NCBI GenBank assembly: GCA_945860425.1
Contig: CAMAQU010000002.1
Location: 1-38,964 of the forward strand
Length of the DNA stretch: 38,964 nt
DNA from: Sphingomonas paucimobilis
Lineage (GTDB): Bacteria; Pseudomonadota; Alphaproteobacteria; Sphingomonadales; Sphingomonadaceae
Direction: 5' to 3'
Numbering within the stretch: the first letter of the stretch is position 1; each line of letters starts with the position of its first letter. The notes beneath the pieces were generated by a model. It worked only from the letters and a program-made list of their open reading frames with translations, searched no databases and had not been told where the DNA came from. The position numbers and the translations under genes were made by a program. Positions 16,052-33,522 of this stretch are shown here, piece after piece.

Positions 16052-17119
16052 CTAGCGGCATCGCTCCATCGCTTCGCGAGCAAGACGGGTCAGGCGCGGG
16101 AAGCTCGCCGCACGATCTTTTGCGTGTGCCGAGGCTGCGGTCCCCCGGATAACGCGGCCCTTAATGCCATGAAAAATGGCCGCCAGTCGGAAAAAGTTAA
16201 AGGCGATATAAAAGTCCCAATTTGGTATCTCCGATCGCCCGGTTCGAGCGCAATAGGCGGCAACATAATCAGCTTGTGTGGGAATATTGAGGGACGCGAC
16301 ATCTGCGTCCCCCAGCCCCGCCACGATATCGGGTGGCATCTGATACATCATCGCATGATAGGCAAAATCGGCCAGAGGGTGGCCCAGCGTCGAGAGCTCC
16401 CAATCCAGAACCGCCAGAATGCGAGGCTCCGATGGATGGAAGATCATGTTGTCGCAGCGAAAATCCCCATGGACGATACTGCTGTCATCGCCATCCGGGA
16501 TGTTATTAGGCAGCCATTCGAGAAGGGCGTCCATATCTCCGTCGCGGCCAGCCTCTTCGTCTTCCATATACTGCCGCGACCAGCGGCTGATCTGGCGCTC
16601 GAAATAATTCCCTGGCTTCCCAAAACCTTCCAATCCAAGTGCTGCGTAATCGAGACTGTGGAGCTGCGCGATCGTCGCATTCATCGCATCAAAATAGGCG
16701 GGGCGCTGATCATGGGGGACCTCCGAAAAGCTCGCGTCCCAAAAAATCCGCCCCTCAACCAATTCCATAATGTAGAACCAGCTGCCGATGACACTGTCAT
16801 CCGTGCAAAGCCCGTAGACTTTGGCAACCGGAAAGCCCGCGGGCGCGAGCGCTTGCAAGATCCGTGCTTCCCGGTCAACTGCGTGGGCTCCTTGCACTGT
16901 CTGCCCAGGGGGCTTGCGCCGCAGAACATAGTTGCGCGTTGGAGTCGATAAGCGATAGGTTGGATTAGACTGACCACCCTTGAACTGGGCAACCTCCAAC
17001 GGTCCAGCATAGCCGTCGATATAGACTGCCATCCAACTCGCCAGAGCGGCCTCGTCAAATCGATGCTGTTCCCGAACAGTTGATGTTCCGCTATTGGCGG
17101 ACGCTCCAGAGGCAGTCAT
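16052..17119 (-). CDS. Phosphotransferase (APH) family protein, ACAD10/11- and LvaA-type
   Basis: LSTPTRNYVLRRKPPG, IVHGDFRCDNMIFH, LAVLDWELSTLGHPLADFAYH. Confidence 0.88.
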   Translation of the reverse strand: MTASGASANSGTSTVREQHRFDEAALASWMAVYIDGYAGPLEVAQFKGGQSNPTYRLSTPTRNYVLRRKPPGQTVQGAHAVDREARILQALAPAGFPVAKVYGLCTDDSVIGSWFYIMELVEGRIFWDASFSEVPHDQRPAYFDAMNATIAQLHSLDYAALGLEGFGKPGNYFERQISRWSRQYMEDEEAGRDGDMDALLEWLPNNIPDGDDSSIVHGDFRCDNMIFHPSEPRILAVLDWELSTLGHPLADFAYHAMMYQMPPDIVAGLGDADVASLNIPTQADYVAAYCARTGRSEIPNWDFYIAFNFFRLAAIFHGIKGRVIRGTAASAHAKDRAASFPRLTRLAREAMERCR

Positions 17120-17385: not shown

Positions 17386-18078
17386 TTAGGTCCGTCTTTC
17401 CGCCAGGGTCTCTAACGTTGTGCGCTTATAGTGGCTGAAAATGGCTTGAAGATTGATCGAGCTTGGATTGATGAGCCATTGATAGACCAATCCAAAAATG
17501 AAGGCGTTAAACTCCATAGCGAAGCAAACGGGATCAATGGATGGACGGATCGTCCCTTCTTCAATTCCTTGCCGCACCCAGCGTTCGGAGTCGCGGCGAT
17601 AGGCCAAATGGTTGGCAGCCAATCGCCGCCGGACAGCCGTGTGGCTACTTATGGACTCATACCAGAGGATATAGAGAGCCTGCATCTCAACACTATGGTT
17701 CAACAAGAAATACTCGACCGCTTCAAGCGCCGCTGTAAACGCAGAAAGCCCTGATTTCTCGCCGACGAACCTGCGAAGCTCACTTGCCCATTTGTCATTA
17801 AACCCAAGAACCAACTGATTGAACAGCGCCTCTTTTGACCCAAAGCGATTGCTGGCCAGGCCCCGGCTGTAACCCGCGCGCTCCCCAATTTCTTTAAGTG
17901 TTGTATTCTGGGTGCCCTTTTCAACAATCAGAAGCATAGCAGCTTCAAACATGCGGGCATCAGACAAAGCCGTCCGCTCTGCCTGCGTGCGACGCCGAGG
18001 GCTTGGCGGCGCATGGGCAGCGAGACCGCTATGCATTTCTTGGGCTTTCTTAGCGACTAGGTTCTGCGACACGGACAA
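17386..18078 (-). CDS. TetR family transcriptional regulator
   Basis: N-terminal HTH: ALSDARMFEAAMLLIVEKGTQNTTLKEIGERAGYSRGLASNRFGSKEALF. Confidence 0.9.
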   Translation of the reverse strand: MSVSQNLVAKKAQEMHSGLAAHAPPSPRRRTQAERTALSDARMFEAAMLLIVEKGTQNTTLKEIGERAGYSRGLASNRFGSKEALFNQLVLGFNDKWASELRRFVGEKSGLSAFTAALEAVEYFLLNHSVEMQALYILWYESISSHTAVRRRLAANHLAYRRDSERWVRQGIEEGTIRPSIDPVCFAMEFNAFIFGLVYQWLINPSSINLQAIFSHYKRTTLETLAERRT

Positions 18079-19690
18079 ATCTCAATTTTCCAGAGTCGAC
18101 GTCCTCTCTTAATTTACGTTTGTCTATTTTCCCAACGCTGGTCTTAGGCAGATTAGGAATAGATGCCCAATATTCGGGGACCATGAATTTGGCCATTTTA
18201 TCTAAGAGAAAACGTCGAACCTCCTCATGGTCAACCTGGTGACCCTCCAACGCCGTCAGAATGACCAAAGGCCTCTCCTCCCAACGTGGATCGGGCACCG
18301 CAATCACGGCGACCTCATTCACGCCCGGATAGCGGCTCACAGCATTTTCCAAATCGACGGACGAAATCCATTCTCCCCCCGATTTGATGAGATCCTTTGT
18401 GCGATCTGTAACCTGCACATACCCGCGGCTGTCGATTGTGCCGGCGTCCCCTGTTCGCAGCCAGCCGTCCTTTGTGAGCGGGCGATCGGCCTCAGCCTGA
18501 AGATAATAGCCCTGCGTGACCCAAGGGCCGCGCAATTGCAGATGGCCAATGGCCTGACCATCTTCTGGCAGCGGCTGGTCAAGATCGTCGACGATGCGCA
18601 CTTCCATTCCTGCAACAGGTCGACCACTTTTTGCCCGCCACTGAACCTCATCATCCGATGGCACATCAACGGGGGGGAAGGAAAGGACGCACATCGGGCT
18701 TGTCTCAGTCATGCCCCATCCTTGAACTAGGCCGACGCCCCAAGCAGCGCGCACCCGCTCGATCAACGTAGGCGACACGGCAGACCCGCCAGAAATCAGC
18801 ACTCGGAAGCACGATAGGTCGAGCGGCTCTTGGTTGTGCATCAACAGCAAGTCGTTCAGGATTGTTGGGACGGCCGCGGCAAAGGTCGGACGCGTCAGGG
18901 TGATCAATTGCGCCAACTTATCTGGCTGAAGATGCGGCCCAGGCAACACGAAATTGCTACCTGCGAGCCAACCGGAAAAGGGCGCGCCCCAGGCATTGGC
19001 GTGGAACATCGGCGGGACCATTAAGAGTGTGTCCCGGTTACTGATCGCAAAAGCGTCCGCTCCAAGCGAGGCTAGGCTGTGCAGAAAAATGGATCGATGG
19101 CTGTAGACGACCCCCTTTGGATTGCCAGTCGTCCCAGAGGTATAGCACATGACGGCCGCGCTGTTTTCATCGAGGTCGGGCCAGTCGTCAAAGGGCGACA
19201 CCCCGTCGATCAAATCCTCATAGCCAATGAGCTTGCCCGAAAAACCAGGGAGAGCAGCAGGTGCATCGCCCAGGACAACAATCATGTCGACCGATGGTAG
19301 ATCGCCAATTACCGAAGCCACCAAAGGCACAAATGACGCATCAAGGATGAGCACCCGATCCTCGGCATGACCGATGATATAGGCAATCTGTTCCGCGGCG
19401 AGCCGGACATTTACCGTGTGGAGCACGCCAGCCATTGCCGGGATCGCCAGATAGGCTTCCAAATGCTCTTGGGTGTTCCAGCATAGCGTCCCGACCCGAT
19501 CCCCCATGGCAAGACCGTGCGCCCGAAGCGCTCTAGCCAGCTGACGCGCGCGATGAGCAACATCGGCATAGCTGGCGGACCGCAACTGAGAGCCGTCAAA
19601 GCTCATCACTTGGCTGTTTTCAAAAAGGCGGGCGCCGCGTCGCAAGATCATCTGCGTCGACAGCGGAAACTGCATCATCGTGGCGTCCAT
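18050..19690 (-). CDS. Long-chain/medium-chain acyl-CoA ligase (AMP-binding)
   Basis: MCYTSGTTGNPKGVVYSHRS, QGWGMTETSPMC, WLRTGDAGTIDSRGYVQVTDRTKDLIKSGGEWISS, PKTSVGKIDKRKLRE. Confidence 0.93.
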   Translation of the reverse strand: MDATMMQFPLSTQMILRRGARLFENSQVMSFDGSQLRSASYADVAHRARQLARALRAHGLAMGDRVGTLCWNTQEHLEAYLAIPAMAGVLHTVNVRLAAEQIAYIIGHAEDRVLILDASFVPLVASVIGDLPSVDMIVVLGDAPAALPGFSGKLIGYEDLIDGVSPFDDWPDLDENSAAVMCYTSGTTGNPKGVVYSHRSIFLHSLASLGADAFAISNRDTLLMVPPMFHANAWGAPFSGWLAGSNFVLPGPHLQPDKLAQLITLTRPTFAAAVPTILNDLLLMHNQEPLDLSCFRVLISGGSAVSPTLIERVRAAWGVGLVQGWGMTETSPMCVLSFPPVDVPSDDEVQWRAKSGRPVAGMEVRIVDDLDQPLPEDGQAIGHLQLRGPWVTQGYYLQAEADRPLTKDGWLRTGDAGTIDSRGYVQVTDRTKDLIKSGGEWISSVDLENAVSRYPGVNEVAVIAVPDPRWEERPLVILTALEGHQVDHEEVRRFLLDKMAKFMVPEYWASIPNLPKTSVGKIDKRKLREDVDSGKLRFVRVAEPSR

Positions 19691-20730
19691 TAAATGGCCC
19701 CCCGGTCTATATGTTTTGCGGCTTCCTGGAGCAGGTTCGGCACATCATGCTCCAGATTTCGAGCATAATCGCGGTCGTCCAATCCGCGGCGGTGGGCAAC
19801 AAAGGCACCTTCAACGATCGCCGCCAACCGCCAAGCAGCAAAAACGGTGTAATATCCCAAATGGCGCTGATCAAAGCCCGTCAACTCCGCCCAAAGATCG
19901 GCCAGGGCAGCAGCCGGAATAATATCAGGCCGATTGGTCAGGGCCTGAACATGTGCGAAGCCCAAAGCATGCTCGGGGTTACGCTGCCAAAAGAACAGGC
20001 AAAGCCCCAAATCGATCAGGGGGTCCCCCAATGTCGCCATCTCCCAATCAAGGATACCCAAGAGGCGCGGCTGACCTTTATCGACAAGGCAATTGTCGAG
20101 GTGAAAATCACAATGAATCAAACTTGCGTGCTGACAGTCCGGACGGTTTGCCAACAGCCAGTCGGCAATCTCCTGAAGGAGGGGCAAGGGGCGAACTTGA
20201 TCCGTTGCACGCTGGTCCAGCCAACGCTCAACTTGGCGCGCCACAAACAAATCAGGCTGACCAAATCGATCCGGCAGACGCGACGCACAATCCGCGCGAT
20301 GGACCGCTGCAAGCCCTTGGATCATTGCTCGGCCCAGAGCAGAAACATGGTCGGCCGCTGAGGCGGTGGAATCGTAGCTGGCCGGCAAGTGGGTCGTCAA
20401 AGAAACGCCATCCAGCCATTCAATGACGGAAAAAGATTGCCCGATCACGCTCGGGTCATCGCACCATGCGACCGGACGCGGCACAGGAGCCTGACCCTGT
20501 AACGCCACAAGCGCCTTGTGCTCGCGCGCGATCCCAGCGGCAGCCTTATCGGAAATCGCAATGACAGGTGGGTGACGCAAAACGAAACGCCCGGAGTCAC
20601 TCTCAATCAATTGGGTCACATTCGCGTTGCCGCCCGCCAGCAACGGGCCGGGCCGGGCATTCTCAATGCCCGCTTCTTGTGTCAGCCATTGGCTTAAACG
20701 CGCAAACGCCTCTGAGGCTAGAGGTTGCAC
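19690..20730 (-). CDS. Second phosphotransferase (APH) family protein
   Basis: RFVLRHPP, LIHCDFHLDNCLVD, LLGILDWEMATLGDPLIDLG. GTG start at 20730 overlaps the SDR stop; track ORF extends to 20790. Confidence 0.85.
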   Translation of the reverse strand: MQPLASEAFARLSQWLTQEAGIENARPGPLLAGGNANVTQLIESDSGRFVLRHPPVIAISDKAAAGIAREHKALVALQGQAPVPRPVAWCDDPSVIGQSFSVIEWLDGVSLTTHLPASYDSTASAADHVSALGRAMIQGLAAVHRADCASRLPDRFGQPDLFVARQVERWLDQRATDQVRPLPLLQEIADWLLANRPDCQHASLIHCDFHLDNCLVDKGQPRLLGILDWEMATLGDPLIDLGLCLFFWQRNPEHALGFAHVQALTNRPDIIPAAALADLWAELTGFDQRHLGYYTVFAAWRLAAIVEGAFVAHRRGLDDRDYARNLEHDVPNLLQEAAKHIDRGAI

Positions 20731-21452
20731 ATTAATCCTCCGTCGGTCACAACGGTCGAGCCCGTCATATATCCCGAACCTGCGACCCACCAGACGACAT
20801 CGGCAATTTCTTCAGCGGTTCCCATCCGGCCAAGCGGCACTTTATCAACGATCTTCTGTCGTGCCTTTTCCGACACGCCTGCCGTCATATCGGTCATAAC
20901 AAAGCCCGGAACCACCAGGTTGACCCGAATATTTTGCCGCGCAAGCTCGCATGCCAAGACTTGGGTGAGCCCAGAAAGGCCTGCCTTGGATGCTCCATAG
21001 CAGCTGTCGCCAGAAAATCCGCGAAAGCCGACAACAGCGCCTATGTTAATAATGGCTCCACCAGCTGCGAGATGCGGGAGAACGGTCCGAATGGCCCGCA
21101 TCGGACCCGACAAATTCGTCGCGAGCGAATCGTCCCAATCGGCATCGCTAATCGAAAGCAACTTGCCCCCGCGGTGAAGGCCTGCATTGTTAACGAGGAT
21201 GTCGACGCCACCCCATTCGTCAACCATCGCAGCGACGGCGGACCCAAGGTCTTGGGCGGAGCTTACATCGCCGCGCACAGCAATCGCGTTTTGGCCGAGG
21301 GATTTGGCCAGATGAGTGACATCATCCCCTCTAGCCATGAGGCAAACCTTGTCGCCTCGCGCGATCGCTAGGGAAGCGATCGCGTGGCCTAAGCCACGCG
21401 ACGCCCCTGTCACAAGCCAGCGACGCTGGCTCGAGTTGGTGTGATTAGACAT
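20718..21452 (-). CDS. SDR family oxidoreductase (FabG-like)
   Basis: VTGASRGLGHAIA, LVNNAG, CYGASKAGLSGL (YxxxK), TGSTVVTDGGLMCNL. Confidence 0.92.
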   Translation of the reverse strand: MSNHTNSSQRRWLVTGASRGLGHAIASLAIARGDKVCLMARGDDVTHLAKSLGQNAIAVRGDVSSAQDLGSAVAAMVDEWGGVDILVNNAGLHRGGKLLSISDADWDDSLATNLSGPMRAIRTVLPHLAAGGAIINIGAVVGFRGFSGDSCYGASKAGLSGLTQVLACELARQNIRVNLVVPGFVMTDMTAGVSEKARQKIVDKVPLGRMGTAEEIADVVWWVAGSGYMTGSTVVTDGGLMCNL

Positions 21453-21464
21453 TCGTCCTCTAGG

Positions 21465-23723
21465 TCAGAATGTCTGAGTTACAGCCACGCCCCAGGTCTG
21501 ACGCGGGCGAGGGGAGGCATAGCTCCAGATACCCTGAACGTCATAACCAATGGTCCAGCCCTTTTCATTGGCAAGGTTCTTGCCAAAGACGCTGACGGTC
21601 GTGTTGTTTAGCTTATAGTTGATCGACGCATCGAGCAGGTACTGGCCGTCGTTGCGCAAGTTCGGGTTGTTCAGGAAGGTGATTTCATGTGCACCAACAT
21701 AGTGCAGATTGCCATTCACCCACATTGTCCCCGAGCCGACTTCCCTCTCCCAGCTTGCGCCAAGGTCCCAAGTCCACTTCGGAGCGCGACGTATCTTCAG
21801 GAACGTCGCGTCAACAGGCTTGCCTGTGCTGTAGATGTCACCGAAGAAGTTTTTGTACTTGGCATCAAGATACCCAAGTTTGGCATTCAGCGTTAGGCCA
21901 TCGGTTGGCTTTGCCGCGAGATCCAACTCAATGCCCTTAAGGTCAGCTTGGGAAGCATTGATTGTTCGGTTTTCACGTCCAGTCGATGTGCCCGGCGCGG
22001 GAACGTCCAGATCTTGCTGCATGTCCTTATACTTCATCAGGAAGACAGCGCCGTTCAACCGGACCCGACGATCAAAAAACTCCGACTTGAAACCAAGTTC
22101 GTAGTTATCGAGCGTTTCCGGATTATAGGCATTCACCGCAGCGCCGACTGTGGCGGGTCGGCCGTTAAAGCCACCGCCGCGATAGCCGCGCGACCACAAC
22201 GCATAGGTCATGACATCCGGCGTCCAATTCATGCTCAAGCTCACCTTGGGCGTGAATTTGGACCAGTCCGCTTCTTTCGGAGCCGTCATGACAATATTGC
22301 CATTCGCCGAGCTTGGCTGGATCGTGACAATCGGATTAACCTCGGCTGTCGAGCCGTAAATGAAAATCGTCTTGTCGTTGACCAAGCTCGTCTTTTTGTC
22401 GTGAGTATAGCGTCCGCCGACTGTCAGCTTCAGCTTGTCGGTGAATTTGTAATCACCTTCAAAGAAGACAGCTGAGGATTTCGTGGTTTGCGTCACGTCC
22501 TGCGCGCTTGTGAGCAACGGCGCCCCGGCAAAGCCAATATAGTTTTTCAGATTGATCGTATATCCTGAGTCCCAGAGATATCCGCCCAAAACAAAATTGA
22601 CCGGGCCCGATCCGCCTTTCGTCAACCGCACTTCATTCGTCGTTTGGCGCCAGCGCGCCGGACGATCAGTGTGGTAGAGCAAGGAGGGTGAGGCATCAAA
22701 GTCCTGCGTCACAGCTTCGCTAGTCTTGAGATAACCGAGAATATACTGAAGTTCGTAATCATCTGAGAGATCGTACTTCACTTTCCCGATCGCCATATCC
22801 AGCTCGAAACGAGCGCTCTTGTCAATTGGCCCATCGCCCAGGCTGACATATGGATTTCCGGACACGGAAACACCCGGAGCAGGCGAGCATTGCTGATAAG
22901 CAGCACAGAAGAGATCTGTAGATTTGTTAACTGCAATAAGCTGCGGCGCGGCTTGCCGCGTCAGCTGATGATCATAATTTGCAGAAATCTCTAGGCCGTC
23001 GGTCGGCGTGATTAGGATCATTGCACCGACAGCGCTGAAATCCGATTTCTGGCCATCTTTGCCCTGCGTCCGGTTAAAAATGTAACCGTCTGAGACATTA
23101 TATGCCCCGGTCAGCTTCATCGCCACATTTGGAGCGAGGCCAAAGCTCACCACACCCTGTGCATCAAGGGTGTTAAAGCGACCATACGTAACGCGCGCTT
23201 TGCCGCTTAGCTCTTGAGTCGGGCGCGACCGCGAAAGGTTGATCACCCCACCCGTCGCATTGCGACCGAATAACGTGCCCTGCGGCCCACGAAGGACTTC
23301 AACGCGATCAATATCGATCGCCTTGAGAAGCGAGCCTGAACTTTGACCGATGTAAACATCATCAATGATGACGCCGACGGCCGGATCGACCGACTTTTCA
23401 ACGTCAGCAACGCCAATGCCGCGAATATAGATAGCTGCAACGCCACCCGGACCCTGCTGCGTATCGTCGATAATGACGTTCGGCGACGCATTCGCAAAAT
23501 CACGAACGTCTGAGTCAAATCGCCGCGCAATTTCCGCTGAGGAAAGTGCACTTACCGATGATGAGACATCTTGCAGATTTTCAACGCGCTTGCGGGCGGT
23601 CACAACAATTTCATCGAGGCCCTGATTATCATTCGGCTCCGCCGCGAGCACCTGACTTGCTCCTAGGGTTGCCATAGATGCTGTAGCAGCAAGAACTGCA
23701 CGGAAATAAGTTGCTGACTTCAT
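21465..23723 (-). CDS. TonB-dependent receptor
   Basis: MKSATYFRAVLAATASMATLGASQVLAAE signal; LDEIVVTARKRVENLQDVSSSVSALS plug; VEVLRGPQGTLFGRNATGGVINL; C-terminal ...WGVAVTQTF. Start at 23723 in the longer ORF. Confidence 0.93.
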   Translation of the reverse strand: MKSATYFRAVLAATASMATLGASQVLAAEPNDNQGLDEIVVTARKRVENLQDVSSSVSALSSAEIARRFDSDVRDFANASPNVIIDDTQQGPGGVAAIYIRGIGVADVEKSVDPAVGVIIDDVYIGQSSGSLLKAIDIDRVEVLRGPQGTLFGRNATGGVINLSRSRPTQELSGKARVTYGRFNTLDAQGVVSFGLAPNVAMKLTGAYNVSDGYIFNRTQGKDGQKSDFSAVGAMILITPTDGLEISANYDHQLTRQAAPQLIAVNKSTDLFCAAYQQCSPAPGVSVSGNPYVSLGDGPIDKSARFELDMAIGKVKYDLSDDYELQYILGYLKTSEAVTQDFDASPSLLYHTDRPARWRQTTNEVRLTKGGSGPVNFVLGGYLWDSGYTINLKNYIGFAGAPLLTSAQDVTQTTKSSAVFFEGDYKFTDKLKLTVGGRYTHDKKTSLVNDKTIFIYGSTAEVNPIVTIQPSSANGNIVMTAPKEADWSKFTPKVSLSMNWTPDVMTYALWSRGYRGGGFNGRPATVGAAVNAYNPETLDNYELGFKSEFFDRRVRLNGAVFLMKYKDMQQDLDVPAPGTSTGRENRTINASQADLKGIELDLAAKPTDGLTLNAKLGYLDAKYKNFFGDIYSTGKPVDATFLKIRRAPKWTWDLGASWEREVGSGTMWVNGNLHYVGAHEITFLNNPNLRNDGQYLLDASINYKLNNTTVSVFGKNLANEKGWTIGYDVQGIWSYASPRPRQTWGVAVTQTF

Positions 23724-23886
23724 AACTATCCTTCTCCTCCCCATGCGGCTCGCGCAAAGGTTTTCAAAAGCAGATGCCCCTGCACCGTTGCGTGACAGGC
23801 AGCTGCGCCGCTCCTTTTTGCTTCGGGTCCCGATTTTGATGCTCAAAACGCGGTCCCCTTCGAGAGCTAGCAGAACAATTGATATA

Positions 23887-24375: not shown

Positions 24376-25683
24376 ATGGCATGGGATTTTTCGACAGAGC
24401 CTGAATTTCAAGAACAGCTCGACTGGATGAAGGAATTTGTAGCGGCCGAGATTGAGCCGATGGACCTTGTGTTCCGCCATCCGGCAGCACCTTTTGATCC
24501 GTCGTCTCCCGCCCAGCGCGCAATGGCGCCGCTAAAGGAGATTGTGAAGAAGAAGGGCCTTTGGGCATGCCATCTTGGTCCGGAACTGGGCGGACAGGGC
24601 TTTGGCCAGGTTAAGCTGGGCCTGATGAACGAAATCCTCGGACGCAGCCGCTTTGCACCCACCGTGTTCGGCACTCAAGCGCCCGACACCGGCAATGCTG
24701 AAATCCTCGCCCGCTTTGGCACGGAAGAGCAAAAGCAGCTCTATCTGCAGCCGTTGCTCGATGGTGAGATTTTCTCCTGCTATTCGATGACAGAACCGCA
24801 AGCCGGGGCAGACCCCGGCCAGTTTACCTGCCAGGCAGACCTGATCGGCAATGAATGGGTCATCAATGGCGAAAAATGGTTCGCAAGCCATGCATGCGTT
24901 GCCGAATTTTTGATCGTGATGTGCATCACCGATCCGGAAGTTCCGGTTCATGAAGGCTCAACCATGCTCATCGTCCCCAAGGACACGCCAGGCATGGAGA
25001 TTATCCGCAATACTGCTGTCGGCCCCAAAGATGCGCTGGGCAGCGGCGTTCATGGCTATTTGCGATTTACCGATTGCCGGGTACCGCGCGTCAACGCGCT
25101 CGGCCCCGTCGGCGAAGGCTTTAAGGTCGCCCAGTCCCGCCTCGGTGGTGGCCGCATTCACCATGCCATGCGAACCGTCGGGATGCTGAACAAGGCAATG
25201 GAGATGATGTGTGAGCGCGTTGTCTCGCGCACCACCAAGGGCGAACGCCTTGCCGACAAGCAAATGGTGCAGGAAAAAATTGCCGACAGCCACACTCAGA
25301 TCACCCAGTTCCGACTGCACGTGCTCTACACCGCTTGGCTGCTCGATCGAGATAAGGCCTATACCCGACCGGTTCGACGCGAGATTTCCGCGATCAAAGC
25401 TGCCATGCCAGATGTGCTGAAGGATGTGATCTATCGGGCACTCCATCTCCACGGCTCGCTTGGCATGTCGAACGAAACCCCGTTGATGGATATGTGGCAA
25501 TATGTGCCCGAAATGGGGATCGTCGACGGCCCGACCGAGGTCCATAAGGTCTCGGTTGCCAAGGATGTGTTGCGCCATGTTGCACCTTCGCCGGGCGTCT
25601 TCCCTACTTATTTCACGCCAGACCGGCGCGCCGCCGCCGCAATAAAATTCGCCGCATTTTTGGGTGAGGAGAAGGCGGCATGA
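24376..25683 (+). CDS. Acyl-CoA dehydrogenase family protein
   Basis: YSMTEPQAGADPGQFTCQAD, NGEKWFASHA, AQSRLGGGRIHHAMRTVG, LHGSLGMSNETPL, DGPTEVHKVSVAKDVLR. Confidence 0.93.
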   Translation: MAWDFSTEPEFQEQLDWMKEFVAAEIEPMDLVFRHPAAPFDPSSPAQRAMAPLKEIVKKKGLWACHLGPELGGQGFGQVKLGLMNEILGRSRFAPTVFGTQAPDTGNAEILARFGTEEQKQLYLQPLLDGEIFSCYSMTEPQAGADPGQFTCQADLIGNEWVINGEKWFASHACVAEFLIVMCITDPEVPVHEGSTMLIVPKDTPGMEIIRNTAVGPKDALGSGVHGYLRFTDCRVPRVNALGPVGEGFKVAQSRLGGGRIHHAMRTVGMLNKAMEMMCERVVSRTTKGERLADKQMVQEKIADSHTQITQFRLHVLYTAWLLDRDKAYTRPVRREISAIKAAMPDVLKDVIYRALHLHGSLGMSNETPLMDMWQYVPEMGIVDGPTEVHKVSVAKDVLRHVAPSPGVFPTYFTPDRRAAAAIKFAAFLGEEKAA

Positions 25684-26141
25684 CACAGGCGCTCGAAGCT
25701 CGAATCGATCAGCTCGAAAGTCGTTTCCAATTTCGCGACCTTGTGAGCGACTATTGCCACGGATTTGACAAGCGAGACCTTGATCAGTTCATGGCAATCT
25801 GGTGGCCGGACGCCATCTGGGACATTGGCCCGCCTTTTGGCGATTTTATTGGCGCCAAAGAAATCGCGAGGGCTGTCACCGATATCCTCTGGCCTGCCTG
25901 GCTCCAGTCAAGCCATTACACCACAAATCTGCGGGTAACCTTCGATGGCGCAGATCTCGCAACGGGGGTCTGCGACGTCGATTGTATCGGCACGATGAGC
26001 GATCAACAGGCCCAGACCGTGGCGGCCACTTATAATGATCGCTTTGAACGCCGAGATGGCATTTGGAAGATCGTGCACCGGAAAGTGACGATGCACCATT
26101 TCAGTCCCCTTGTCGGCATCACTCTCTCGGCACCGAAATAG
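25680..26141 (+). CDS. NTF2-like/SnoaL-like protein resembling gamma-HCH dehydrochlorinase LinA; putative dehydratase or lyase
   Basis: GFDKRDLDQFMAIWWPDAIWDI, ILWPAWLQSSHYTTNLRVTF, CDVDCIG, FERRDGIWKIVHRKVTMHHFSPLVGI align by eye to LinA (D25, H73, R129 equivalents D30, H79, R134). ATGA overlap with ACAD. Confidence 0.8.
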   Translation: MTQALEARIDQLESRFQFRDLVSDYCHGFDKRDLDQFMAIWWPDAIWDIGPPFGDFIGAKEIARAVTDILWPAWLQSSHYTTNLRVTFDGADLATGVCDVDCIGTMSDQQAQTVAATYNDRFERRDGIWKIVHRKVTMHHFSPLVGITLSAPK

Positions 26142-26157: not shown

Positions 26158-26961
26158 ATGGCTTACCATCAGCTGACAGACGGCCGGCGGATTTATTTTG
26201 AACATTATGCCGGACCAAAAACGCCATTTGTCCTGAGCCATGGCTGGGGCATGTCGAGCCGCGTTTGGGTGGATGTGATCGAACAGTTGCTGCGCGCGGG
26301 CCATGAAGTCCTTGCGGTTGATCATCGCGCTTGCGGCCAATCGGACCGCGATTTTGATGACATGAGCATTGGCGCCCTTGCAGGAGATATTGTCGATATC
26401 GCCCGAGCACGAAAGCTGCGACCTGCCATCGTCAACGGATGGTCACTGGGCGGGGCGGTTGCTGTGGAAGCCGCGCATCGACTTGGTAAGGATGCGGCAG
26501 GCCTTATCCTGACATGCGCGGCGTCGCCGCGCTATGTGCAAGCAGCAGATTTTCCCTATGGCGGCGTGCGCGAGGATGTGCTCGGCATGCAAGACGCCAT
26601 TCTTGCGGACCGGGCCGGTTTCTTCAAAGGCCTTTCAGCCGGCGTATGCGCGAAAGATGTTGGTCAGCCGGCCATTGACTGGATGTGGTCAATATTCATG
26701 GATGCAGGGCCCCAAGCGATAAAGGCAATGCTCGCCTTGGCGGATCTGGATCAACGCTCGATCTTAGCCGGTCTTGATATTCCGGTGCTATCTATCATCG
26801 GCAGTGAAGACGGTGTGGTGCCGCCCCAAATTGGAGAGCAGGCAGCCGCATGCGCGCAACACGGAAAACTTGCCCGTTTCGAAGGATGTGGCCATGCCCC
26901 CTTTATCGAGGATGGGCCCGGCTACATTAAAACGCTGCTTGAATTTGCCCAAGACGTTTAG
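26158..26961 (+). CDS. Alpha/beta hydrolase (serine nucleophile)
   Basis: SHGWGMSSRVW, NGWSLGGAVAVE (GxSxG), GCGHAPFIEDGP; AGGAGG before ATG 26158. Track ORF starts at 26110. Confidence 0.9.
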   Translation: MAYHQLTDGRRIYFEHYAGPKTPFVLSHGWGMSSRVWVDVIEQLLRAGHEVLAVDHRACGQSDRDFDDMSIGALAGDIVDIARARKLRPAIVNGWSLGGAVAVEAAHRLGKDAAGLILTCAASPRYVQAADFPYGGVREDVLGMQDAILADRAGFFKGLSAGVCAKDVGQPAIDWMWSIFMDAGPQAIKAMLALADLDQRSILAGLDIPVLSIIGSEDGVVPPQIGEQAAACAQHGKLARFEGCGHAPFIEDGPGYIKTLLEFAQDV

Positions 26962-27016: not shown

Positions 27017-28126
27017 ATGGGCGCGTTAGACAGTTTGATGAAGCCTTTTGAATGCAAGTCATTCAAAGTACCAAATCGATTGATGATGGCGCCAATGTCG
27101 CGCTATTTCGCGCCAGGTGGGCTGCTAACCCAAGCCTCGGTGGACTATTATCGCCGACGCATTGAGGGCGGTCTGGGCAGCGTCATATCCGAAGCCGTGG
27201 CGATTGATCGCCCTGGTTCAGTTGCGGCAGATACCGTCCCTCATTTCTACGGAGATGAGGCGTTGGCCATGTGGGCGCGCGTTCGCGAAGACTGCCAAAA
27301 AGCAGGCGGCGCGTTCATTCCACAGCTGTGGCATGTCGGCGGATGCGAAGACTTTAACTACCCGGACTCCCCGCATCCACCGCTGGAAAGTCCGTCGGGT
27401 CTGGTCGGGCCTGACATCGCAGGCGGGCGGGAGATGACCCAAGCCGATATTGACGGCGTGATCGCATCCTTCGTCCGGGCGGCACGCGATGCGCAGCGCA
27501 TTGGGTGCAATGCGATCGAGCTTCATGGAGCTCATGGCTATTTGTTCGACCAGTTCTTCTGGGATGTGACCAATAAGCGCGCCGACAAATATGGAGGCTC
27601 AGATATCGCAGATCGCGTCCGTTTTGCCGCAGAGACAGTGGCGGCAATTCGACAGGCCGTCGGTCCTGACTTGACGATCATCTTCCGCATCTCACAGTGG
27701 AAGACCTATATGTACGAAGCCAAAATCGCGGAGAACCCTCAGGATCTTGAGCGTTGGCTGACACCGCTGACCCTTGCCGGGGTCGACATTTTCCACTGCT
27801 CCGAACGCCGTTTCTGGGAGCCCGCCTTTGCCGATGGGGATTATAACCTCGCTGGTTGGACCAAGAAGGTGACGGGCAAGCCCACGATCACGGTCGGCTC
27901 GGTCGGCCTGAACCGCGATCTGATGGCTGATTTTGTCGAAGGTGAATCAGCCCCGGCGCTCCAATCACTAGATGAGTTGACGCGCCGCTTCGACAGGGGT
28001 GATTTTGATTTGGCCGCCATCGGCCGCGTTGTTCTTAACGATCCGCACTGGCTCCAGAAGGTTCAGGAAGGTCGCGTCGCGGAACTACAACCCTATTCCA
28101 GAGAGAATATGGACAAGCTTTATTAA
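27017..28126 (+). CDS. NADH:flavin oxidoreductase / Old Yellow Enzyme family
   Basis: VPNRLMMAPMSR, IPQLWHVGG, AIELHGAHGYLFDQFFWDVTNKRADKYGGS, DLAAIGRVVLNDPHWLQKV. Confidence 0.92.
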   Translation: MGALDSLMKPFECKSFKVPNRLMMAPMSRYFAPGGLLTQASVDYYRRRIEGGLGSVISEAVAIDRPGSVAADTVPHFYGDEALAMWARVREDCQKAGGAFIPQLWHVGGCEDFNYPDSPHPPLESPSGLVGPDIAGGREMTQADIDGVIASFVRAARDAQRIGCNAIELHGAHGYLFDQFFWDVTNKRADKYGGSDIADRVRFAAETVAAIRQAVGPDLTIIFRISQWKTYMYEAKIAENPQDLERWLTPLTLAGVDIFHCSERRFWEPAFADGDYNLAGWTKKVTGKPTITVGSVGLNRDLMADFVEGESAPALQSLDELTRRFDRGDFDLAAIGRVVLNDPHWLQKVQEGRVAELQPYSRENMDKLY

Positions 28127-28161: not shown

Positions 28162-29796
28162 ATGAGCAAGAACGGCAAGAAGGTCGATTTTGACGTAATT
28201 GGGATCGGCGCAGGGTTCGCAGGACTGGCTTTGATCCATTATCTGCGCAATGCGGGCCTATCGGTTCGGATTTTTGACCGCGCGTCTGATGTCGGCGGCA
28301 CTTGGGCATGGAACCGCTATCCCGGCGCGGCAACGGACAGCGAAAGCTATTATTACTGCCTCACCTTTTCCAAGGAGCTGCTGCAGGAATGGTCCTGGAC
28401 CAAGCGCTATCCCGGCCGCCAGGAAACGCAAGATTACATGCGCTTCGTTGCCGACAAGTGCGATATGTGGCCTTACATCCAGCTGAACACGGAAATTGTC
28501 GACGCCGAATATCAGGTTGATGACGGAATTTGGCGGGTGACCACAGGCTCGGGCGACCGCTTTACCTGCAAGTATTTCGTGAGCGGCATGGGGATGATTT
28601 CTGAACCCATGATCCCGAACATCAAGGGGATGGACCAGTTTAAAGGTCCGCTTTTCCATTCTTCACGTTGGCCCAAAGAAGGTCTGGAATATGCCGGAAA
28701 GCGGGTTGGCATCATCGGCGCTGGCGCAACGACAGTTCAGATGGTTCCCGAAGTTGCGAAGACCGCGGCCAGCGTAACGGTTTTCCAGCGAACGCCGAAT
28801 TATATTCTGCCGGCCATGCAAAAGCAGATGACGCCGGAATGGGAAAAAGAGATTAAGGATAATTACGACGCAATCGTCGCAAAATGCCGAAACCATGTGT
28901 TCGGCATGGCCTTTGACAGTCCGGTTGGCCGCAATGCGCTAGACACGCCCCCCGAAGAGCGTCAGCGCATCTTTGAAGAGAATTGGACGGGCAGCTTCCG
29001 CTGGGTATTCGAAACCTTCGACGATCTGCTCGCCGCTCCTGAAGCCAATCGCATGGCTTCTGAGTTCATCATCGCCAAGATGAAGGAACGGGTGAAAGAC
29101 CCAAAAATTGCTGACCTTCTGGCGCCAAGCTTTGAAAATTATCCGCTTTTTGCAAAGCGTCCGCCGCTTGATCATGGCTATCTGGAAGCCTTCAACGAAG
29201 ACCATGTCCATTTGGTGGATATCAAGGATGCCGAACCGCTTGTCGAAGTTACGGAAACAGGCGTACGCACGACGCGCAACCATTATGAGTTTGACATCAT
29301 CGTGCTCGCCACGGGGTTCAGCGCCTATACAGGCGCGCTAGAAGCCTTCCCGATCAAGGGCGTGAGCGGCCAAACGCTCAGCGAGAAGTGGCGCAAGTCT
29401 TCGGATTGCATCATGGGCGTTTGCGTGTCGGATTTCCCGAATATGTTTGTCGTCACAGGCCCACAGGCTCCGTTCGCCAACCTGCCCACCTCAATCGAGC
29501 AGAATGTCATCTGGATCACCCACTGCATCGAGAAGATGGAGCGTGAAGGTTATGACATCTTCAAGCCTCGCCGCGAAGCCGAAGAGGCCTGGACCGCGCA
29601 TACCGCCGAAATCCATGCCCAGACACTCATGGCCGAGGGCCATAAGGTCAATTCCTGGATGATGGGGGCCAACCGGCAGGATAAGCCACCGCGCGTTCTC
29701 ATCTATTTTGGCGGCGCGAATAACTATTATGATACGCTTGATAAATCAGCCGAAGAAGGCTTCCCAGAGCTGGAATTTGAAAAGCTAGGGGCCTGA
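28162..29796 (+). CDS. Flavin-containing Baeyer-Villiger monooxygenase
   Basis: IGIGAGFAGLALIHYLR, GGTWAWNRYPGAATDSES, BVMO fingerprint FKGPLFHSSRWP (FxGxxxHxxxW), IIGAGATTVQMVPEVA, IVLATGFSAYTG. Confidence 0.93.
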   Translation: MSKNGKKVDFDVIGIGAGFAGLALIHYLRNAGLSVRIFDRASDVGGTWAWNRYPGAATDSESYYYCLTFSKELLQEWSWTKRYPGRQETQDYMRFVADKCDMWPYIQLNTEIVDAEYQVDDGIWRVTTGSGDRFTCKYFVSGMGMISEPMIPNIKGMDQFKGPLFHSSRWPKEGLEYAGKRVGIIGAGATTVQMVPEVAKTAASVTVFQRTPNYILPAMQKQMTPEWEKEIKDNYDAIVAKCRNHVFGMAFDSPVGRNALDTPPEERQRIFEENWTGSFRWVFETFDDLLAAPEANRMASEFIIAKMKERVKDPKIADLLAPSFENYPLFAKRPPLDHGYLEAFNEDHVHLVDIKDAEPLVEVTETGVRTTRNHYEFDIIVLATGFSAYTGALEAFPIKGVSGQTLSEKWRKSSDCIMGVCVSDFPNMFVVTGPQAPFANLPTSIEQNVIWITHCIEKMEREGYDIFKPRREAEEAWTAHTAEIHAQTLMAEGHKVNSWMMGANRQDKPPRVLIYFGGANNYYDTLDKSAEEGFPELEFEKLGA

Positions 29797-29865: not shown

Positions 29866-30696
29866 ATGCGTCTGGAAAATAAAGTGGCGGTCATCACTGG
29901 CGGCGCAATGGGCATTGGCGCGGCAACGGTCAGTCGATTTATTGCTGAAGGCTGCAAGGTCGTGATCGGCGATATCCAACGCGGCCCAGGCGAATCCTTT
30001 GCCGCGCAATTTGGCGATCAGGCAGCCTTTGCCCTTTGCGACGTGACGCGAGAAGACGATGTAGCAGCACTTGTCGATTTGGCGGTCAGCCGATTTGGTC
30101 AGCTGGATATCATGTTCAACAATGCAGGCATTGTCGGCGCGGTAGGACCAATCGATACGACCCCGGCTGATGAATGGAACAAGTCACTTGCCGTCCTTAT
30201 CAATGGTGTGTTCTTTGGCATGAAGCACGCGACCCGCGTGATGAAGCCCGCGCAGCGTGGCAGTATCATCAGCATGGCCAGCACCGCAGGCTTGATGGGC
30301 GGCCTTGGGCCCCACGCCTATGCAGCAGGTAAGCACGCGGTTGTCGGGATGACCAAGAATGTCGCAGCCGAGGTCTGCCATTTTGGCATTCGCGTCAATG
30401 CGATTGCCGCAGCAAGCATGGCGACCCCTATGGTGGCGAATGTCCTGACCGGAGATGGCGGCAATATTGAGGAAGCCAAGCGCATCCTTGCCGAAGTCTC
30501 TCCCTTGCGCGGGCGGCCCGGTCTTGCCGAAGATGTGGCTAATGCGGCGCTTTGGCTGGGAAGCGATGAATCAGGCTATACAACGGGCCATACGCTGACG
30601 ACTGACGCGGGAGCCACCATTGGTGCCACAGCAGCAAAGCCGAATTTCAGCGAGTATCAGCCGATGATTGGTGAGGTGTCCGTAAAGGGACGGTGA
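29866..30696 (+). CDS. SDR family oxidoreductase
   Basis: ITGGAMGIGAATV, MFNNAGIVG, AYAAGKHAVVG (YxxxK), TGHTLTTDAGATIG. Confidence 0.92.
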   Translation: MRLENKVAVITGGAMGIGAATVSRFIAEGCKVVIGDIQRGPGESFAAQFGDQAAFALCDVTREDDVAALVDLAVSRFGQLDIMFNNAGIVGAVGPIDTTPADEWNKSLAVLINGVFFGMKHATRVMKPAQRGSIISMASTAGLMGGLGPHAYAAGKHAVVGMTKNVAAEVCHFGIRVNAIAAASMATPMVANVLTGDGGNIEEAKRILAEVSPLRGRPGLAEDVANAALWLGSDESGYTTGHTLTTDAGATIGATAAKPNFSEYQPMIGEVSVKGR

Positions 30697-30986: not shown

Positions 30987-31502
30987 ATGACCAAAGATCA
31001 AAATCAGTTGAACACGTCTGGTGCAGACAAAAAACATTCGGCAAGCACAACTGAACTTTTGTCTGAAGAATTGCTTTCCCATATTGGCCGATCGTCAGCG
31101 CCCCGGACGGAAATTGTCTCGCGCCGTGAAATCCGGAAATATGCAATTGCGACAGGCTGGAAGAAGAAAGAATATTTAGATGGCGATGTCGCGCCGCCAT
31201 TATTCCATCTCCCGCTGTTCTGGGACATTGTAGAGCTTGACCAGTTGAGCCCCGACGGCGTTTCAATTGATCGCCTGCTGCCCAAATTCCCGCTCGAAAA
31301 GGCGATGGCAGGCGGCCTAGACATCGAATATTTCCGACCGATCCGCGCAGGCGACGTTTTGGTGGCCACCCGCACCCTGACCAATATTTACGAAAAATCT
31401 GGCTCGCAGGGGCCGATCATTTTCTATGAAGTTGTAATGCGCGTGGAAACGGAAGCGGGCGACCTTGTCCTCACTGAAAAAACAACACGGCTCTTGCGAT
31501 AA
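30987..31502 (+). CDS. MaoC-like/FAS1 dehydratase N-terminal-type hot-dog subunit
   Basis: SRREIRKYAIATGW, PPLFHLPLFWD, GGLDIEYFRPIRAGDVLVATRTLTNIYEKSGSQGPIIFYEV. Confidence 0.82.
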   Translation: MTKDQNQLNTSGADKKHSASTTELLSEELLSHIGRSSAPRTEIVSRREIRKYAIATGWKKKEYLDGDVAPPLFHLPLFWDIVELDQLSPDGVSIDRLLPKFPLEKAMAGGLDIEYFRPIRAGDVLVATRTLTNIYEKSGSQGPIIFYEVVMRVETEAGDLVLTEKTTRLLR

Positions 31503-31924
31503 TGACTATGTCGAAACTAACGAACCTGAAACCGGGCGACACCTTGCCGGGCCGGGATTATTGCCCGGATAACGTCCAGAATTTCATGTATAGTGCCGCG
31601 CTATGGAATGCCCATCGCATCCATTTCGACATGCCCTATGCGGCAGACGTGGAAGGCTATCCGGGCATTGTGATGTCGGGGCCGATGCTTGGCGACTGGC
31701 TGACGCAATGCGTGATCGAATGGCTGGATGATGCGGGCCGGATGACGCACCTTGTCTATTCGAACCGCAAAGCCGCCTTTATCGGCGAGACGGTCACCTC
31801 AGGCGGCCGTGTGATCTCGGTCGATAAGGACAAGGGCACTGCTGACCTTGAAATCTTCATCAAGAATGAGGCGGGCGAGGTGATCGCCCCAGGCACCGCC
31901 ACCGTTACCTTTGACAAGGCCTGA
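31502..31924 (+). CDS. MaoC-like (HTD2-type) dehydratase catalytic subunit
   Basis: ALWNAHRIHFDMPYAADVEGYPGIVMSGPMLGDWL; TAATG overlap with the preceding ORF. Confidence 0.87.
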   Translation: MTMSKLTNLKPGDTLPGRDYCPDNVQNFMYSAALWNAHRIHFDMPYAADVEGYPGIVMSGPMLGDWLTQCVIEWLDDAGRMTHLVYSNRKAAFIGETVTSGGRVISVDKDKGTADLEIFIKNEAGEVIAPGTATVTFDKA

Positions 31925-33106
31925 TTGGAATTGATCTTGGACAGCTTGCGCGGGAAAGTCGCCATTGTTGGGGCCGCGGATACCCCGGTGGGAAAGCTAC
32001 CCCAGTTCAGCCCGACGGGCTTGTGCATTGATGCCGCACGCCGTGCCATGTCAGATGCGCAAATCACCAAGGACCAGATTGACGGGCTGATCACCTGCAA
32101 TTCCATGGCCGAGCCCTATATGTATCACGCCGAGGCGATGGCGGAATATCTCCAGATCTTCCCGCGCTATTGCATGAGCGTGAATGCAGGCGGCAGCACC
32201 ACATTTTCCATCCTGCATCATGCAGCCGCTGCGATTGCGAGCGGCATGTGCACGACCGTTCTGATTACAATGGCAGACAGTTTACGCACGGGCCTAACGC
32301 GCGATCAGGCGATGAAAATGCAGTCGTCGGCCGGCCATTCGCAGTTCGAAATTCCCTTTGGCCCGACAGTCCCAGCCTTTTATGCGCTCATCGCCCGTGC
32401 CCATATGGAAAAATATGGCACGACCGCTGAACAGTTCGCCGCCATTGCCGTCGCCTGTCGCAAACATGCCTGCCTCAACCCGACGGCGGAAATGCGCACC
32501 CCGATCACGATCGACGATGTGATTAATTCCCGGATGATCGCGGACCCCTTGCACCTGCTCGATTGCTCGCTGGTCTCGGATGGGGGCTCTGCGATCATCC
32601 TGACCTCGGCAGAAAGAGCCGCGGATTTTCCGCACGCCCCTGTATATCTTCTGGGCGTCGGCGAAGGCCATGGCCATGAACATATCAGCCAGGCCCAAAG
32701 CCTAACCACGTCCTTCGCAGTGGAATCGGGCCGCCGGGCCTATGCCATGGCTGGGCTTGGACCAAGCGACATGGACTTGGCTCAACTCTATGATTGCTTC
32801 ACGCCAACAGTGCTGGTGGAACTTGAAGACCTTGGCTTTTGCGAAAAGGGCGAAGGTGGTGCGTTTGTGGAGAATGGCAATATCGAGTTGGGCGGCATCC
32901 TGCCGGTCAACACCCATGGCGGGCTTTTGTCCCATTGCCATCCGGGCAATCCGGGGTCGATGTTTGCGCTCACCGAAACCGTGACCCAGCTTCGTGGGGC
33001 TGCCGGTGCGCGTCAGGTGGAGGGCGCTGAAGTCGCGCTGGTGCATGGCCAAGGTGGCATCATGTCAAGCCATACCACCGTGATCCTCGGCAGGGAGCGC
33101 AACTGA
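31925..33106 (+). CDS. Thiolase-fold lipid-transfer protein (Ltp2/SCP2-like), candidate aldolase subunit; TTG start
   Basis: VNAGGSTTFSILHHAAAAIASG, AQLYDCFTPTVLVELEDLGFCEKGEGGAFVENG, GILPVNTHGGLLSHCHPGNPGSM. Confidence 0.88.
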   Translation: MELILDSLRGKVAIVGAADTPVGKLPQFSPTGLCIDAARRAMSDAQITKDQIDGLITCNSMAEPYMYHAEAMAEYLQIFPRYCMSVNAGGSTTFSILHHAAAAIASGMCTTVLITMADSLRTGLTRDQAMKMQSSAGHSQFEIPFGPTVPAFYALIARAHMEKYGTTAEQFAAIAVACRKHACLNPTAEMRTPITIDDVINSRMIADPLHLLDCSLVSDGGSAIILTSAERAADFPHAPVYLLGVGEGHGHEHISQAQSLTTSFAVESGRRAYAMAGLGPSDMDLAQLYDCFTPTVLVELEDLGFCEKGEGGAFVENGNIELGGILPVNTHGGLLSHCHPGNPGSMFALTETVTQLRGAAGARQVEGAEVALVHGQGGIMSSHTTVILGRERN

Positions 33107-33522
33107 TGGACGTCCACGCAGACAAATTCCTGCCTCGGCCAACCCCGGAATCGGCTCCCTTCTGGCAGGGCTGCAAGGAGCACAAGCTCCTGCTCCAGCA
33201 CTGCTCGGGCTGCGGCACATATCAATTTTATCCGCGCCTACTCTGCGCGACCTGCATGTCCGAAGACCTTGAATGGCGCGAAGCCAGCGGGCGCGGCAAA
33301 GTGGAAACCTATACAATTGTCACCCGTGCCGTCTCAGACGCCTATGCCGCCGATGCCCCCTATGTCATCGCCCTCATCACCCTTGAGGAAGGGCCGCGCA
33401 TGATGAGCAACGTGGTTGGCTGCGACGCCCAGAGCGTCACCTGCGGCATGGCCGTTGAAGTGGTGTTTGAAGCTTGGTCGGCCGAAATCACCATGCCGAA
33501 ATTCCGGTCGGTCGCGGGCTAA
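33106..33522 (+). CDS. Zn-ribbon/OB-fold (DUF35) protein
   Basis: LLQHCSGCGTYQFYPRLLCATCMSEDLEWREASGRGKVETYTIV; TGATG overlap with thiolase. Confidence 0.92.
   Translation: MDVHADKFLPRPTPESAPFWQGCKEHKLLLQHCSGCGTYQFYPRLLCATCMSEDLEWREASGRGKVETYTIVTRAVSDAYAADAPYVIALITLEEGPRMMSNVVGCDAQSVTCGMAVEVVFEAWSAEITMPKFRSVAG

Follow-up and report, generated by a model that had tools for sequence, protein, structure and literature searches.

The stretch of DNA examined here (referred to as the window) comprises 38,964 nucleotides of Sphingomonas paucimobilis (contig CAMAQU010000002.1 of assembly GCA_945860425.1), i.e., contig 2 of a draft genome of 1.73 Mb that is 76% complete. At positions 25680–26141 of its forward strand lies a gene for a 153-aa SnoaL_4/NTF2-like protein that resembles LinA, the dehydrochlorinase of γ-hexachlorocyclohexane (γ-HCH, or lindane), and the open reading frame (ORF) translates exactly as described in an earlier note on this DNA. 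As also recorded there, its ATG start overlaps the TGA stop of an acyl-CoA dehydrogenase (ACAD) ORF (24376–25683, +) as ATGA, and the LinA-like gene overlaps or abuts the preceding ORF in two further copies of the gene cluster described below. The protein scored 79.6 bits against the Pfam SnoaL_4 domain (PF13577), above the gathering cut-off of 24. Since nonsynonymous divergence from its orthologs is low (dN of 0.23–0.30) and synonymous divergence high (dS of ca. 2.7 or saturated), the ORF is a real, functioning gene under purifying selection.

Downstream on the same strand follow an α/β hydrolase gene (26158–26961; BioH/PcaD-like, candidate lactonase or C–C hydrolase), which is the conserved next gene in the cluster, an Old Yellow Enzyme (OYE) family ene-reductase gene (FMN; 27017–28126) that is kept in most cluster copies, a Baeyer–Villiger-type flavin monooxygenase (BVMO) gene (28162–29796), and a gene for a short-chain dehydrogenase/reductase (SDR; 29866–30696) that is not the LinX-like SDR discussed below (38% identity to LinX). 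The divergent, reverse-strand half of the cluster opens with a TonB-dependent receptor gene (21465–23846), next to which lie the conserved genes for SDR1 (20718–21452), an APH-family kinase (19690–20790), an AMP-dependent acyl-CoA ligase (18050–19690) and a TetR-family regulator (17386–18078). The earlier proposal of a catabolic acyl-CoA operon is supported, and no lin genes or IS6100 were seen in the window. A second APH-family kinase gene is located near the cluster (16052–17119, –), its product being 66% identical to one encoded beside the cluster in another genome (G075, locus L041).

The kinase encoded at 19690–20790 matches the kinase domain of ACAD11 (E-value of 1e-28), and the closest characterised relative of the cluster ACAD, whose 81–91% identical orthologs adjoin LinA-like genes elsewhere, is the dehydrogenase domain of the same protein (2e-68 vs. 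6e-41 for ordinary ACADs). ACAD10 and ACAD11 are described as processing 4-hydroxyacyl-CoAs via phosphorylation and elimination (PMC11342911, PMC12440821). The split ACAD11-like kinase and dehydrogenase likely constitute a bacterial 4-hydroxyacyl-CoA route that is kept together with the LinA-like gene. Adjoining the cluster but outside its conserved core, positions 30987–33522 (+) encode a protein with a FAS1-like dehydratase domain, a second, small protein taken as MaoC-like from its position (with no Pfam hit), an SCP2-type thiolase and a DUF35/ChsH2-C protein, which would make up a β-oxidation set resembling that of steroid side-chain cleavage. Weak NCBIfam matches, below the cut-off, were to cyclohexanecarboxylate and ketosteroid enzymes; they point to six-membered rings and name no substrate.

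The earlier note had proposed searches against LinA, BaiE-type enzymes and scytalone dehydratase. In a phmmer search of all PDB chains, three LinA entries came out on top over nearly the full length (1e-30 to 2e-28), followed by 3b8l (3e-7), Rv3472 (0.01) and BaiE (0.07), i.e., a lead of 23 orders of magnitude over the next family. The BaiE-type similarity is not significant, and scytalone dehydratase gave no match up to E = 10 in this search; LinA itself matches the putative scytalone dehydratase 3ef8 at 7e-4. By BLASTP, the protein is 37% identical to UT26 LinA (145 aa) and 39% to each of 3s5c and 5kvb, in alignments of 140–145 aa, so that the likeness along the whole length noted earlier is real and the estimate of roughly a third slightly low. 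These values lie below the >85% identity found among the LinA types compared here. The similarity to LinA is far beyond chance, and judged by sequence no other characterised family comes as near to the protein as LinA does. One could still suppose that it is an ordinary SnoaL protein whose likeness to LinA is generic, as Pfam assigns SnoaL-type domains only and its catalytic triad is itself generic (see below). However, the clade to which it belongs is 36–42% identical to LinA (33–35% for a pair of order-level relatives), whereas 38 generic SnoaL proteins reach 29% at most, with a median of 21%; together with the placement in the LinA tree and the co-occurrence with LinX described below, this leaves such a reading scarcely credible. 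An outcome in which LinA is no closer than other families, named in the earlier note as one that would speak against kinship, was not observed, as both phmmer and the tree put LinA nearest.

The alignment confirmed that Asp25, Trp42, His73 and Arg129 of LinA correspond to Asp30, Trp47, His79 and Arg134 of the LinA-like protein, as proposed earlier, and likewise paired Tyr25 and Tyr118 with LinA positions 20 and 113. The Asp, His and Arg residues were also found in 37, 38 and 37, respectively, of the 38 generic SnoaL proteins, which mostly come from the same bacterial family. Almost every SnoaL_4 protein thus has this triad, and it was rejected as an argument for kinship with LinA. In contrast, Trp42 and Ile44 discriminate the LinA clade, because they are absent from all 38. 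A total of 22 positions passed our filter for residues that mark the LinA clade and seldom occur in generic SnoaL proteins, with Trp36, Trp42, Ile44, Trp65, Asp93, Gly98 and Phe136 among such signatures; the LinA-like protein carries the clade-specific Trp36, Trp42, Ile44, Trp65, Gly98 and Phe136. Of these, Trp36, Trp42, Ile44, Gly98 and Phe136 do speak for kinship with LinA.

Conversely, ten positions that are invariant in the rest of the clade are changed in LinA. These include four pocket residues (according to the pocket list of PMC3507683): Tyr is replaced by Lys/Gln at position 20, Cys by Leu at 21, Trp by Phe/Tyr at 68 and Val by Ala/Gly at 131. Tyr at position 20 is found throughout the clade and in 35 of the 38 generic proteins. 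In LinA, Arg129 has been called catalytically essential, and Lys20 a possible leaving-group helper in the UT26 type (PMC3174995); Leu129 occurs in one LinA type. With the clade as outgroup, ancestral-like states are seen at positions 23, 71, 96, 113 and 133 in the B90A pSRL1-type LinA and at 115 and 129 in the UT26 type. These comparisons also bear on the idea that the window protein itself dehydrochlorinates chlorinated compounds: it shares the D25, H73, R129 and W42 positions, and LinA is reported, in papers on DDT and HBCD that PMC11186250 cites, to accept other chlorinated or brominated compounds. Nevertheless, it has Tyr25 and Cys26 in place of the Lys/Gln20 and Leu21 of LinA, and the absence of lin genes and IS6100 from the window extends, for lin genes, to the ca. 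10 kb examined on either side of the other cluster copies, which makes this idea very improbable.

Relatives of the LinA-like protein were sought in 400 genomes of the family, 386 of the class and 399 of the phylum (fewer than 1,900 genomes sampled overall). Within the family, orthologs of 62–73% identity were found in six genomes (G090, G044, G037, G075, G203 and G120) and a broken form in two (G311 and G223), while no new carriers were detected at E ≤ 1e-16 in the class and phylum sets. Two order-level genomes hold relatives of 55% identity, in each of which a KstD-like FAD oxidoreductase gene, the LinA-like gene and an amidohydrolase-like gene lie side by side (L055, 8690–11993; L056, 8766–12083). 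Plasmid records contributed relatives in Sphingomonas sp. MM-1 (pISP0, 49%), Methylibium petroleiphilum PM1 (41%) and Rhodococcus sp. ZPP (36%), and a scan of genome contigs yielded a 26% identical Acidimicrobiales protein as its sole match. Some of the homologs, among them the MM-1 pISP0 paralog, are publicly annotated as "nuclear transport factor 2 family protein", and they may have been noticed elsewhere before. At one locus (L037, 6645–7031, –), the LinA-like gene carries an in-frame internal deletion of ca. 87 codons that removes the Asp/His dyad, reflecting either decay or an assembly artefact. The window gene belongs to a small group of natural bacterial proteins that are the closest LinA relatives found here.

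Genuine linA was also encountered in genomes of the window's family, at the same coordinates as on plasmids of Sphingobium sp. TKS, MI1205 and S. indicum B90A. G275 has a linA whose product does not differ from UT26 LinA over 145 aa, together with an IS6100-flanked paralog, and G1356 likewise has both. This unnamed LinA-like paralog (42% identity to LinA) is located beside IS6100 at L048, 11998–12441 (MM-1 pISP0), L012, 888–1331 (G275) and L068, 16797–17237 (G1356), and may be regarded as a candidate extra lin-type gene of linA-carrying genomes.

By tblastn of the window proteins, the divergent cluster was found to be kept, with small gaps, in seven other genomes, in the order TetR–ligase–kinase–SDR1–TonB on one side and SDR′–ACAD–LinA-like–hydrolase–OYE on the other. 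The gaps concern the TonB gene (no match in G223), the OYE gene (not nearby in G203) and the LinX-like SDR′ gene, which heads the LinA-like operon in other copies and is missing from that of the window; a BVMO gene (78%) is also present near the cluster in G223. LinA-like orthologs residing in a conserved sphingomonad catabolic cluster are new here, as is their LinX-like SDR neighbour, the closest LinX relative found among 131 family genomes.

In a tree of 59 rows, mostly other SnoaL proteins of Sphingomonadaceae and of other bacteria, LinA grouped with the IS6100-flanked paralog (UFBoot/SH-aLRT support of 95/96), then with the window clade (86/81), and then with the order-level pair (93/97). 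LinA is thus nearest to the window clade, with its branch point within or just beside it, and the window clade is a sister lineage of LinA rather than a direct ancestor, the paralog of HCH degraders being closer to LinA than the window protein is. The earlier description of the protein as a relative or ancestor-type of LinA therefore stands as far as a specific relative is concerned, and is too strong in its second half.

At linA of B90A and MM-1 the gene order is ACAD, linX, SDR, linA, and both LinX and the SDR beside linA are 56–62% identical to SDR′, whereas most of the remaining SDRs at the cluster loci reach ca. 28–38%. In the 131 family genomes, the five best matches of LinX (56–59%) were SDR′ genes and came from precisely those five genomes of the sample that bear the cluster, with the next match at 47%. 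In an SDR tree, linX, its neighbour next to linA and the SDR that accompanies the IS6100 paralog grouped with SDR′ (99/93), in the same topology as the LinA tree, and the IS6100 paralog sits between LinX-like SDR remnants. Because of these top matches, the agreement of both trees and the SDR remnants, the data indicate that SDR and LinA were inherited together and also mobilised together. The linX–linA pair looks like one recruited from such a catabolic cluster and then spread by IS6100, and LinA itself would have arisen from within or beside a small native Sphingomonadales clade of putative SnoaL_4 lyases. We hold this origin, i.e., kinship with LinA and co-recruitment with LinX, with considerable confidence. 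The bolder view that the cluster is the ancestral pathway type for LinA and LinX, with present members already weakly active on HCH-like polychlorinated rings, so that changes of a few pocket residues (Tyr20 to Lys/Gln, Cys21 to Leu and Trp68 to Phe/Tyr) would account for the rise of a pesticide enzyme from a natural lyase, seems rather unlikely.

A number of points weigh against this account and the function proposed below. Approximately unbiased (AU) tests did not reject trees in which LinA is the sister of the entire clade (p = 0.22) or of the cluster proteins plus paralog (p = 0.16), and LinA is therefore placed within or beside the clade and not firmly inside it. The window copy has no LinX-like SDR, and most copies have no BVMO. 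The ACAD beside linX is not the cluster ACAD: some of the same genomes carry relatives of 67–73% identity at other places, and it was rejected as a relic of the cluster ACAD (34–39%), relatives of 70–73% occurring at unrelated places in four of the seven genomes searched. The KstD-like FAD oxidoreductase that adjoins the LinA-like genes of both order-level relatives also adjoins linA (44%), but the one beside linA is equally close to copies elsewhere with no LinA-like gene in sight (43–48%), and it says little as a shared neighbour. On present evidence, neither the ACAD nor the FAD oxidoreductase near linA shares the history of the SDR–LinA pair. Finally, for the pocket geometry, a single-sequence AlphaFold2 model was unusable (pLDDT of 48.7).

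As to function, the best proposal is a dehydratase-type lyase acting on a hydroxylated cyclic ketone, and we rate putative dehydratase-type chemistry at slightly better than even. BaiE and scytalone dehydratase are examples of dehydratases among the enzymes of NTF2-like fold with an Asp–His dyad (PMC11476836). The enzyme would work without a cofactor: His79, oriented by Asp30, would take a proton from the ring carbon adjacent to the carbonyl, Tyr25 would steady the carbonyl oxygen, and Arg134 would aid departure of the hydroxyl to leave an enone. Formation of the ring ketone would fall to the LinX-like SDR and dehydration of the resulting β-hydroxy ring ketone to the LinA-like enzyme, after which OYE would reduce the new double bond; ring opening by the monooxygenase and/or α/β hydrolase might follow, with the ligase and the ACAD11-like kinase and dehydrogenase passing the hydroxy acid into β-oxidation. 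A ring compound of the terpenoid, steroid or cyclohexane type is the probable substrate. The replacement of Tyr20 by Lys/Gln and of Cys21 by Leu would mark the shift to chloride elimination in LinA.

The same dyad also occurs in decarboxylases and a formaldehyde lyase (PMC11476836), and the OYE, BVMO and hydrolase neighbours allow several step orders, so a LinA relative with another native reaction, such as a ketosteroid-isomerase-like double-bond shift, retro-aldol cleavage or decarboxylation, or lactone or epoxide opening by the dyad, is conceivable. We consider it doubtful, as LinA, the nearest characterised kin, performs β-elimination, the fold relatives BaiE and scytalone dehydratase are dehydratases, and Tyr, Asp, His and Arg are all kept. 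A non-enzymatic role in the cluster, as ligand binder or subunit partner, appears very unlikely: many NTF2-like proteins are non-catalytic and the G223 copy is internally deleted and lacks the dyad, but the intact orthologs checked keep Tyr, Asp, His and Arg, and the gene is under strong purifying selection. Taken as a whole, the preferred explanation (a native clade, the origin of LinA and LinX, and a candidate dehydratase of a hydroxylated cyclic ketone) is one we favour somewhat over the sum of its rivals.

LinA starts lindane breakdown and is the textbook example of an enzyme that acts on a man-made compound and has no known origin; as late as 2024, a laboratory working on LinA described it as unique, "with no significant homologous sequence" (PMC11186250). 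That origin becomes testable through a native sister clade that sits in a conserved cluster next to the closest relatives of LinX. The clade also provides an outgroup that polarises LinA variants (Tyr20, Gly23, Cys96, Tyr113 and Arg129 being ancestral-like), proteins to assay, and a pathway class in which to search for the native substrate.

Compared with LinA (PDB 3a76, 3s5c and 5kvb), the window protein thus shares the clade, 37–39% identity over the full length and the D25, H73, W42 and R129 positions, and clade genes adjoin a LinX-like SDR gene. It differs in having Tyr25, Cys26 and Trp74 (Lys/Gln20, Leu21 and Phe/Tyr68 in LinA), and in being encoded in a catabolic cluster instead of beside a lin pathway or IS6100. 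The MM-1 pISP0 paralog, at 49% identity, likewise keeps Tyr20 and the dyad and is flanked by LinX-like SDR remnants, but its surroundings are mobile and truncated, and it is the closest non-LinA relative of LinA. Scytalone dehydratase shares its fold and Asp–His dyad with LinA (PMC3174995, PMC3507683), but gave no match to the window protein up to E = 10. ACAD10/ACAD11 and the levulinate (Lva) pathway resemble the window in that the kinase and ACAD encoded near the LinA-like gene correspond to the two domains of ACAD11, although here as two separate genes, and the likeness is one of pathway and not of the LinA-like protein. BaiE and Hsh2, the 7α-hydroxysteroid dehydratases, belong to another subfamily (with BaiE matching at E = 0.07 only), but are NTF2-like dyad lyases for which similar chemistry may be expected. 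Their pathway also combines an SDR, a CoA ligase, an OYE-type enzyme and a SnoaL dehydratase, the bile-acid dehydroxylation set of BaiA, BaiB, BaiCD and BaiE resembling the SDR, ligase, OYE and SnoaL set of the window.
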